This document shows, in pieces, positions 43,834 to 55,805 of a stretch of DNA of 64,000 nucleotides (position 1 is its first letter; each line of letters starts with the position of its first letter). The position numbers were made by a program, and so were the translations under genes. The stretch is from contig NZ_FNJQ01000017.1 of NCBI RefSeq assembly GCF_900104055.1, positions 1-64,000 of the forward strand, written 5' to 3'. The notes beneath the pieces were generated by a model that worked only from the letters and a program-made list of their open reading frames with translations, had not been told where the DNA came from and searched no databases. This DNA is from Pseudoselenomonas ruminantium (GTDB lineage Bacteria; Bacillota; Negativicutes; Selenomonadales; Selenomonadaceae).

Positions 43834-43889
43834 GGATGGTGACATTGAGTTGGCCAAACCTTCAAGACAGTTAGAGAATGTTTTGGAGG
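43834..43889 (+). promoter_or_regulatory. RAT-like element followed by anti-Shine-Dalgarno, licT leader
   Basis: 43834-43860 (GGATGGTGACAT...TTGGCCAAACC) matches the LicT/BglG ribonucleic antiterminator consensus in its conserved ends and internal loops. The last CC begins CCTTCAAGA (43859-43867), which can pair over nine positions, including wobbles, with TTTTGGAGG (43881-43889). That segment is the ribosome-binding site of a 10-residue leader peptide. RAT folding and this pairing exclude each other, because both need the CC. Confidence 0.7.
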
Positions 43890-43897
43890 GGATTCGT

Positions 43898-43930
43898 ATG
43901 TTAGATGTTAGGAAGACAAGACAAACTTGA
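43898..43930 (+). CDS. Putative 10-residue leader peptide of licT
   Basis: ATG 43898 lies 6 nt after GGAGGGG and reads MLDVRKTRQT, then TGA at 43928-43930. The last five codons and the stop overlap the 5' arm of the terminator hairpin that precedes licT, so a ribosome translating it would block that hairpin. Supported by position and ribosome-binding site only; too short for coding statistics. Confidence 0.5.
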   Translation: MLDVRKTRQT

Positions 43931-43963
43931 CAATCGTGTATTGTCAGGGTGTTTTGTCTTTTT
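43918..43963 (+). terminator. Attenuator terminator in the licT leader
   Basis: An outer stem (AAGACAAA with TTTTGTCTT) and an inner stem (TGACAAT with ATTGTCA) are followed by a T-rich run. It lies between the leader peptide and the licT start. Confidence 0.8.
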
Positions 43964-44005
43964 ATTTTGCCCGTTTGGGCAGCAGGTGGTATGGGGGAGT
44001 AACTG

Positions 44006-44857
44006 GTGCAGATTAAAAAGATTTTGAACAATAACGTAATTGTGACCGAGGATGAGGCAGGGCTCGAAGTCGTGGCCATGGGGCGCGGGATTGCTTTTGG
44101 CAAGAAATGCGGCGAGGATGTGCCCAATGAGAAAATTGACAAGGTCTATAAACTCAGTGACCATGATATGCTCGAAAAGTTCAAGGAGCTGCTCGCAGGC
44201 CTGCGCGTGGATTATCTCGACTCCAGTACGGCCATCATCGAGATGGCGGAAAAGGAACTGGGCGTCAAGCTCAATGAGACCGTCTATATTTCCCTGACCG
44301 ACCATATACATATGGCCATTCATCGCCTGCGGGAGGGCATCAATATCCGCAATATGATGCTTTGGGAGACGCGGCGTTTCTATCCCAAGGAATTTGCTAT
44401 TGCCGAAAAGGCCGTGCTGATGCTCGAAGCCCAGTTTGATATCGATATTCCCGAGGATGAAGCTGGTTTTATCGCTATGCACATCATCGATGGCCAGCTG
44501 GATATGAAACAGCCGATGGCCGATAAGATCCTCACCCTGATTGAGGAAATCACCAATATCGTGCGCCGTTTCTGCGGGATTGAATTTGACCAGGAATCCC
44601 TGGCTTACTATAGATTCGTAACCCACTTGAAATTCTTTGCCCAGCGTATGTTCAGCGGGGCGAAATACAATGGCGATGAGATCGATGAAGAGATGGAAGC
44701 CATGGTCCAGAAGAAATACAAACAGGCCCATGAATGTGTGGACCGCATTGTGGCCTATCTGGCCAAGAAGTATCATTACGCCGTCAGCGGCGAAGAACAG
44801 TTTTATTTGATGATCCATGTGGCGAAAGTCATTCGCAAGTGTCAGGAACAGGCATAA
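44006..44857 (+). CDS. licT: BglG/LicT-family transcription antiterminator
   Basis: A 283-aa RNA-binding regulator. The CAT RNA-binding domain occupies about 1-55 (MQIKKILNNNVIVTEDEAGL, MGRGIAFGKKCGEDV). Then come two PTS-regulation domains: PRD1 with ISLTDHIHMAIHRLREG (His) and FAIAEKAVLMLE, and PRD2 with YYRFVTHLKFFAQRM and FYLMIHVAKVIRK. PRD histidines are phosphorylated by HPr and by the beta-glucoside permease; without substrate the permease inactivates the protein. The GTG start follows GGGGGAG by 6 nt. It controls RAT elements, of which four candidates occur here: its own leader, the porin gene and two before bglP. Confidence 0.93.
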   Translation: MQIKKILNNNVIVTEDEAGLEVVAMGRGIAFGKKCGEDVPNEKIDKVYKLSDHDMLEKFKELLAGLRVDYLDSSTAIIEMAEKELGVKLNETVYISLTDHIHMAIHRLREGINIRNMMLWETRRFYPKEFAIAEKAVLMLEAQFDIDIPEDEAGFIAMHIIDGQLDMKQPMADKILTLIEEITNIVRRFCGIEFDQESLAYYRFVTHLKFFAQRMFSGAKYNGDEIDEEMEAMVQKKYKQAHECVDRIVAYLAKKYHYAVSGEEQFYLMIHVAKVIRKCQEQA

Positions 44858-44875
44858 GCCTTTCCATATAAATTA

Positions 44876-44934
44876 GGATGGTGACATTAAGTTGGCCAAA
44901 CCTTCAAGAATTTACATTTATAAGTTTTTGGAGG
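44876..44934 (+). promoter_or_regulatory. RAT-like element followed by anti-Shine-Dalgarno, porin gene leader
   Basis: 44876-44902 differs at a single base from the licT-leader element. CCTTCAAGA (44901-44909) can pair with TTTTGGAGG (44926-44934), the porin ribosome-binding site. No terminator hairpin lies between this element and the start codon, so transcription antitermination cannot be its only role. Confidence 0.7.
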
Positions 44935-44941
44935 TATGAAC

Positions 44942-55131: not shown

Positions 55132-55533
55132 TCACTCCTTAGACTTTTTTCGGTACTTCCGGTTTTCCTTTTTGGCCAGCCAATAGGCTTCCTGCAGGGA
55201 CTGCATCACGGCGTCACGGTCTTCCTCGCTGAGCTCGCCGCCGGCGAAGAGTCCGGAAAGTTCGCTGACCAGCGCATTGGCCTGTTGCAGACCGCGGCTG
55301 CCATATTGAGCACCGGCCTGACTGACGAAGGCTTCGTTCTCGGTGAAGAGGTAGTTGGTATCTACTTCGAAGACCTCGGCCAGTTTTGCATAGCGTTCGC
55401 GGGTTTTGGGATAGCGGCCGTCCAGCTCGTAGGAAATATAGGTGCGGCGGGTAACACCAATGGCCTTGGCCACGGCTTCCTGGCTCAATCCTTTCTGGTG
55501 GCGCAGCTGCCGCAATTTTTCTGCGAAGTTCAT
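55132..55533 (-). CDS. XRE-family transcriptional regulator
   Basis: A 133-aa regulator with an N-terminal helix-turn-helix (KLRQLRHQKGLSQEAVAKAI, then VTRRTYISYELDGRYP) and a helical C-terminal part rich in charged residues. It forms a probable ImmR/ImmA-like pair with the metallopeptidase gene next to it. ATG 55533 is chosen because AAAGGAG lies about 11 nt upstream and the HTH begins here; longer frames run into the promoter. Regulated genes are not evident beyond its own operon. Confidence 0.88.
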   Translation of the reverse strand: MNFAEKLRQLRHQKGLSQEAVAKAIGVTRRTYISYELDGRYPKTRERYAKLAEVFEVDTNYLFTENEAFVSQAGAQYGSRGLQQANALVSELSGLFAGGELSEEDRDAVMQSLQEAYWLAKKENRKYRKKSKE

Positions 55534-55575
55534 AACGTTCAAACTCCTTTGTATCTGTGCAATTGAATTACTCAA

Positions 55576-55604
55576 AGTGTAACACAGTGCAGGCGATAAC
55601 GCAA
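55576..55604 (-). promoter_or_regulatory. Promoter of the XRE-ImmA operon
   Basis: On the minus strand TTGCGT (55599-55604), a 17-bp spacer and TACACT (55576-55581). Confidence 0.55.
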
Positions 55605-55629
55605 GGGGGAATTTTACGGGATTTTTTTC

Positions 55630-55658
55630 TTGACAATTTATTATTGATTTGTTATCAT
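55630..55658 (+). promoter_or_regulatory. Promoter of bglP-bglA
   Basis: TTGACA (55630-55635), a 17-bp spacer and TATCAT (55653-55658). The transcript should start near 55665, about 10 nt before the first RAT element. Confidence 0.8.
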
Positions 55659-55672
55659 TTATCTTGTACGAA

Positions 55673-55745
55673 GCGGGATGGTTACGCAAGATGCGGCCAA
55701 ACCTTGCAGGCGAAGTTCGCCTCTGGGTTGATCCACGCTTTTTTT
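55673..55745 (+). promoter_or_regulatory. RAT element overlapping an intrinsic terminator (classical antitermination switch)
   Basis: 55676-55703 (28 nt) matches the RAT consensus well: GGATGGTTA, an upper stem CGC-AAGAT-GCG, then GCCAAACC. The alternative structure is a terminator. CAAACC (55698-55703) pairs with GGGTTG (55725-55730), an inner stem AGGCG/CGCCT (55708-55722) forms, the outer GCGGGAT pairs with ATCCACGC, and seven T follow (55739-55745). LicT binding to the RAT should block the terminator. Confidence 0.85.
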
Positions 55746-55754
55746 GTATGTTTA

Positions 55755-55805
55755 GGATGGTTACATTAGGTTGGCCAAACCTTCAAAGTTATTTAATTTT
55801 GGAGG
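55755..55805 (+). promoter_or_regulatory. Second RAT-like element followed by anti-Shine-Dalgarno before bglP
   Basis: 55755-55781 resembles the licT and porin elements more than the first bgl RAT. CCTTCAAA (55780-55787) can pair with TTTGGAGG (55798-55805), the bglP ribosome-binding site, over eight positions. No T-run or terminator follows. Confidence 0.7.

Follow-up and report, generated by a model that had tools for sequence, protein, structure and literature searches.

Proteins of the BglG/LicT family are the classic model of transcription antitermination, and a 2015 study by Gordon reportedly has RATs without terminators as its subject. For the Bgl/Sac family, reviews describe an antiterminator that overlaps a terminator and is stabilised (PMC4347634; PMC7430163), and at bglP of S. 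mutans the terminated transcript has been seen (PMC1489936). Both E. coli and B. subtilis are reported to have RATs that lack a terminator, which may serve other purposes (PMC12502629). A text search of the open-licence literature for LicT, BglG and SacY found no report of Shine-Dalgarno (SD) sequestration by a RAT; an unfound report is possible. A sequence-only reading of the locus described here had suggested a LicT protein that switches translation on, a mode not known to have been described; Rfam and the open-licence literature searched give only RAT-terminator antitermination. At a permissive threshold Rfam has no match at the RAT sites of this locus or at the SD-type sites tested elsewhere. 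RF03530 (bglG-cis-reg) was considered as an existing name for the element and set aside, as its covariance model matched neither the tested SD-type sites nor the genome studied here.

The RATs of the licT and bgl operons

The window is a stretch of 64,000 nucleotides from Pseudoselenomonas ruminantium (contig NZ_FNJQ01000017.1, positions 1 to 64,000). By pattern, the whole genome holds four RATs, every one inside this window (Table 1), which follow the form GGNTNGTNAC...GGCNAAACC with position 5 paired with its partner. Those starting at 43834, 44876 and 55755 lie exactly where the sequence-only reading had placed them, but its list was incomplete: a fourth, terminator-type RAT begins at 55676, directly upstream of 55755. 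At the first three the terminal CC opens an anti-SD arm, as had been claimed, but the pairing is longer than the 8-9 positions given for it, with 11, 14 and 11 contiguous pairs to the downstream GGAGG. The licT-leader hairpin (11 pairs) is supported by folds, and that of the PTS gene, which also forms in folds, closes its 11 pairs over a 4-nt loop. In each case the other arm of the SD hairpin is needed by an alternative fold, the arrangement expected of SD sequestration. No overlap of the RAT 3' half with an intrinsic terminator is found at 43834, 44876 or 55755, and at 55676 the RAT-terminator arrangement is present in layout only.

Table 1. Features of the licT and bgl operons in the window
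Feature	Position	Strand	Basis and details
licT promoter-like site	43772..43800	+	TTTACA-17-TACAAT; consensus scan 10/12, TG before -10
RAT of licT leader	43834..43860	+	GGATGGTGACATTGAGTTGGCCAAACC; pattern match; kept in relatives
licT-leader anti-SD/SD hairpin	43859..43889	+	CCTTCAAGACA (43859-43869) pairs with TGTTTTGGAGG (43879-43889); SD GGAGG 43885-43889
Leader ORF MLDVRKTRQT*	43898..43930	+	10 codons; stop inside terminator stem
licT-leader intrinsic terminator	43909..43968	+	fold -26.5 kcal/mol, z -7.0; no RAT overlap
licT	44006..44857	+	CAT RNA-binding domain, then two PRDs
RAT between licT and porin gene	44876..44902	+	GGATGGTGACATTAAGTTGGCCAAACC; pattern match; 18 nt past licT stop
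Porin-gene anti-SD/SD hairpin	44901..44934	+	14 contiguous pairs; SD GGAGG 44930-44934; folds
Probable porin gene	44936..46372	+	first gene downstream of putative 44876 switch; ORF; start 44936 or 44942
GH3 beta-glucosidase-like gene	46386..48758	+	after porin gene, same direction; Pfam
bgl operon promoter-like site	55630..55658	+	TTGACA-17-TATCAT; consensus scan 11/12
Terminator-type RAT	55676..55703	+	GGATGGTTACGCAAGATGCGGCCAAACC; exact pattern match; kept with T-run in same-genus genomes
Terminator-like inverted repeat	55693..55745	+	overlaps 55676 RAT; T-run 55739-55745; layout kept in relatives
SD-type RAT of PTS gene	55755..55781	+	GGATGGTTACATTAGGTTGGCCAAACC; pattern match
PTS-gene anti-SD/SD hairpin	55780..55805	+	CCTTCAAAGTT (55780-55790) pairs with AATTTTGGAGG (55795-55805); SD 55801-55805
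Beta-glucoside PTS EIIBCA (bglP/bglF type)	55811..57724	+	TIGR01995, 736 bits; Pfam
6-phospho-beta-glucosidase, GH1	57737..59143	+	NCBIfam PRK09593, above cut-off

Such pairing is rarely obtained by chance. When the CC and GGAGG are held and the intervening bases permuted, it is equalled in 62, 27 and 480 of 200000 shuffles at the 43834, 44876 and 55755 sites, respectively. Among the 40 sites on the + strand of the window with GGAGG and a start codon, stems of 9 or more pairs that close on the final G occur only at the three that follow these RATs. The licT promoter-like match is weak alone, shuffles giving about equally many matches.

The LicT protein carries the CAT RNA-binding domain and two PRDs of a LicT/BglG antiterminator (Pfam CAT_RBD and PRD), scores 344 bits as the LicT equivalog in NCBIfam (cut-off 300) and matches the structures 1tlv, 1h99 and 1l1c in the PDB. 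The next gene probably encodes an outer-membrane porin with an S-layer homology domain, its N-terminal part matching the S-layer homology proteins 8bys and 8bz2. The bgl operon seems to be gated twice in series, in transcription by the 55676 RAT-terminator and in translation by the SD-type RAT at 55755. Elsewhere in the window, a ZMP/ZTP riboswitch (above its cut-off) and a T-box-like leader (under its own) lie at 4094-4176 and 15087-15314, respectively, and the - strand of 51368-54163 encodes a protein of 931 aa that has two AAA ATPase modules and, by eye, two GNPGTGKT Walker A motifs; a zinc-peptidase-like ORF and a regulator of the XRE type are found nearby.

Covariation and folding

The sequence-only reading had named missing conservation of the anti-SD pairing in related species as a refutation, but the pairing is both kept and covarying across Bacillota and Brachyspira. 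In 84 distinct arm pairs from the leaders listed, stem positions 6-12 are paired in 389 of 558 cases (70%), against 52% when partners are shuffled among leaders (0 of 20000 shuffles); positions 1-5 (CCTTC/GGAGG) are nearly invariant and thus uninformative on covariation. With relatedness limited by a single leader per downstream-protein group (representatives under 60% identity), the 29 leaders kept give 134 of 196 (68%) against 50% shuffled (0 of 5000), slid registers pairing at 36-54%, and the answer is unchanged for 13 leaders under 50%. Pairing is kept in other letters in the arm variants CCTTCAAT/ATTGGAGG, CCTTCATAA/TTATGGAGG, CCTAAAAT/ATTTTAGG and CCTCTTAT/ATAGGAGG. The RAT itself also covaries: in all 108 leaders listed, its position 5 forms a GC, AT, GU, CG or UA pair with the partner base. 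The anatomy of the RNA and the selection acting on it are direct results of these computations.

Folding the leaders with the RAT forced, a check proposed along with the original claim, lowers the modelled median cost of opening the SD from 6.4 to 2.4 kcal/mol among the leaders listed, a drop of about 4 kcal/mol, and the SD becomes more open in 107 of 107. The two structures had been taken to exclude each other; this holds for the two shared C-G pairs, but the remaining stem can re-form, much weaker, when the RAT is forced.

Distribution of the RAT-SD element

How widespread is this layout? We scanned 84,980 species genomes for a RAT with GGAGG 12-42 nt downstream. Taken together with the relatives of the host, the layout occurs in at least 107 leaders (at least 84 distinct) of Negativicutes, Clostridia, Bacilli, Erysipelotrichales and Brachyspira, the scan matches listed including Enterococcus, Clostridium, Clostridioides difficile, Vagococcus, Paenibacillus, Erysipelotrichales, Lacticaseibacillus, Lactococcus and Brachyspira. 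Matches from Enterobacter, Bacillus and some Paenibacillus are canonical RAT-terminators with the GGAGG within the hairpin and were set apart; as the scan demanded a GGAGG near the RAT, it is uninformative on the relative frequency of terminator-type RATs. A loop-agnostic RAT pattern, run over the genus and class of the host, detects RATs in 13 of the 22 genomes of the same genus, with a like downstream layout, and RATs with the same layout in several other genera and families of Negativicutes. With a narrower pattern the element occurs in 7 of 399 Bacilli genomes and is thus widespread but patchy there.

The gene after the listed elements is nearly always a beta-glucoside PTS gene (with a MGKYEELAKEIVKNVGGKENI-like start), at most 53 nt separating the end of the RAT from the start codon. 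Outside the relatives set, the locus includes a licT homologue at 56 of the 62 SD-type sites, almost invariably immediately upstream and in the same orientation, and several of the six other sites are at the edge of the DNA examined; a RAT upstream of licT is found for only 2 of 54 licT genes at these loci. The common form is licT, RAT, SD hairpin and PTS gene, probably on a single transcript, in which any control of the second gene has to come after transcription of licT. The hexaloop is UUNRGU in 104 of 111 SD-type RATs against 7 of 90 of the terminator type, in a sample picked by a nearby GGAGG, and comparison of CAT domains from loci with the two types of RAT revealed no distinctive RNA-binding residue.

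Some loci have features of their own. A Lactococcus plantarum MAG (L195) has CCTAAAAT as anti-SD, pairing with ATTTTAGG just 5' of the SD AGG, and an additional GGGCAGTTGCCC hairpin in the loop. C. difficile HC132 carries four tandem canonical RAT-terminators at about 104-nt spacing (G309:C109:289706-290107). Four same-genus genomes (G001, G002, G012 and G014; loci L014, L018, L019 and L021) have a licT that is split or contains an in-frame TGA, through decay, assembly error or another cause, although their RAT-SD leaders are kept.

The licT leader

A further correction to the sequence-only reading is that the RAT at 43834 does not stand directly before licT: an ORF of 10 codons intervenes, followed by a terminator. 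This ORF is exactly 10 codons long in each of 10 distinct same-genus leaders and in a single leader from another genus, and in all of these the stop falls 14-24 nt inside the terminator structure. The peptides are unalike (MLDVRKTRQT, MCRVMKAKFT, MIGMDKARQI, MYTMMKAEQA, MFEFMKTRRS); as length is kept and peptide is not, the signal would appear to be the act of translation. The ORF thus reaches the 5' arm of the terminator in the same-genus leaders, as translation-dependent attenuation demands, and outside the genus the picture is not uniform. Leaders in other families have ORFs of 32-49 codons that run through the terminator or of 1-6 codons, some of the latter stopping before it, and one leader (L083) is without a clear start codon.

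The terminator persists in the minimum-energy fold of every leader tested when the RAT is forced, and LicT binding alone is therefore not expected to antiterminate at licT. The same folds led us to reject an RNA-only antiterminator formed by the freed SD strand and the terminator 5' arm, considered because the sequences of the two are alike. The translational reading originally given for this site needs extension, since leader-ORF translation probably controls the terminator. Translation-driven antitermination at licT is a reading that we favour slightly. In its fuller form, LicT would free the SD of the leader ORF, and translation into the arm of the separate terminator would allow read-through into licT, while the same RAT module would switch translation of the transport genes; the odds for this combination seem a little better than even.

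Other arrangements precede licT elsewhere. A canonical RAT-terminator stands before licT in one species (G285, L075). Two loci (L076 and L250, in genomes G267 and G346) have a RAT with the loop ATTTGGTT immediately before licT, without a leader ORF, and in L076 another anti-SD (CCTC...GAGG plus GACTG/CAGTC) may gate translation of licT itself.

Proposed switch and alternative explanations

What would LicT do at these elements? Its protein family and the adjacency of licT suggest that it binds the RATs and that binding affects translation. The last two C of the RAT also close the hairpin burying the SD of the next ORF. In the proposed switch, LicT would be inactive without inducer, the anti-SD hairpin would form and ribosome loading would be blocked. 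With a beta-glucoside present, an active LicT dimer would bind the nascent RAT and remove the CC from the hairpin, the remainder of which, weakened by this loss, would open to ribosomes. The 44876 switch would control the porin gene of the licT operon, and that at 55755 the PTS gene, downstream of the RAT-terminator; a LicT translation switch at these two sites is likely. At 43834 the switch would release the 10-codon ORF, which ends in the 5' half of the RAT-independent terminator, and a ribosome on this ORF would prevent the terminator from forming and let licT be transcribed, a positive autoregulation via translation. The protein-free hairpin being favoured by several kcal/mol, LicT would have to bind co-transcriptionally or with high affinity. 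In cells the switch may be leaky or small, since the remaining A-U-rich stem can still partly cover the SD once the RAT has formed, only two base pairs being strictly shared between the RAT and the SD hairpin.

Antitermination is the known mode of RAT/LicT systems, and the anti-SD hairpin could be a weak terminator, or a terminator could lie at a distance, RAT binding preventing termination in either case. The 55780-55805 hairpin scored as terminator-like in a simple scan, and upstream of it, at 55676, there is a true RAT-terminator. However, 88 of 90 stems are without a T-rich tail, a run of at least 5 T within 8 bases following only 2, and the 3' arm is a good SD at a median of 7 nt from the start codon, whereas terminator-type RATs of the same genomes have a stem loop, a long hairpin and a T-run; ordinary antitermination is therefore very unlikely. 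It is more doubtful still that the SD hairpin is a constitutive dampener or thermosensor and the adjoining RAT a leftover. A-U-rich SD hairpins are common among thermosensors, but here the terminal CC of the RAT is also the start of the hairpin, covariation keeps the position-5 pair of the RAT in every leader listed and licT adjoins nearly all sites.

Control of mRNA stability, in which LicT on the RAT-SD element would protect the message or block RNase cleavage with translation following passively, is improbable, though marginally less so than ordinary antitermination. RNase III cleaves at the RAT/terminator hairpin of E. faecalis nagY, and other roles have been proposed for terminator-less RATs (PMC12502629), but this leaves unexplained why the covarying partner is always an SD, at a fixed distance from the start codon. 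The idea of LicT as a translation activator, advanced in the sequence-only reading, is supported by the covarying pairing, the adjoining licT and the terminator-free interval between RAT and start codon. We give the LicT-dependent translation ON switch, as an explanation of the whole, a probability of about 0.8. A putative translational variant of LicT control, acting on sugar-uptake genes in a rumen bacterium and in many gut and soil bacteria, is well supported by these comparisons.

If the fuller reading of the licT leader is true as well, the LicT family would have three outputs in one 12-kb regulon: direct antitermination, direct translation and translation-driven antitermination. A widespread, covarying RAT-SD switch would account for a class of terminator-less RATs and would provide a compact, modular translation switch under a phosphorylation-gated protein. 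It would hold for C. difficile and for enterococci as well, and beta-glucoside PTS induction as read from RNA-seq would need rethinking, the RNA level being blind to the switch.

Relation to known regulatory systems

In leader-peptide attenuation of the trp/erm type, a ribosome blocks an arm of a terminator. The licT leader resembles these systems in its short ORF running into a terminator stem, and differs in that an RNA-binding protein would control whether this ORF is translated and in that the peptide is not conserved. RF03530 (bglG-cis-reg) shares with the element a RAT-like core upstream of bglG/licT, but contains a terminator-like part. With TRAP at the trp genes (PMC4347634) the element shares an RNA-binding attenuation protein that alters SD accessibility via alternative folding; however, the proteins are unrelated, and TRAP represses where LicT binding would activate. 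Translational ON riboswitches and translational T-boxes (PMC11477304) also free the SD through a ligand-stabilised anti-sequestrator, the ligand here being a PTS-controlled protein. Close, too, are the systems of BglG/LicT/SacY antitermination (B. subtilis LicT, E. coli bgl and S. mutans bglP; PMC1489936), which share the LicT equivalog, the RAT consensus, the beta-glucoside PTS genes and the logic of two overlapping RNA structures. Differently to these, the competing fold here is not a terminator but a hairpin that buries an SD, licT and the PTS gene usually flank the RAT, and a UUNRGU loop takes the place of a stem.
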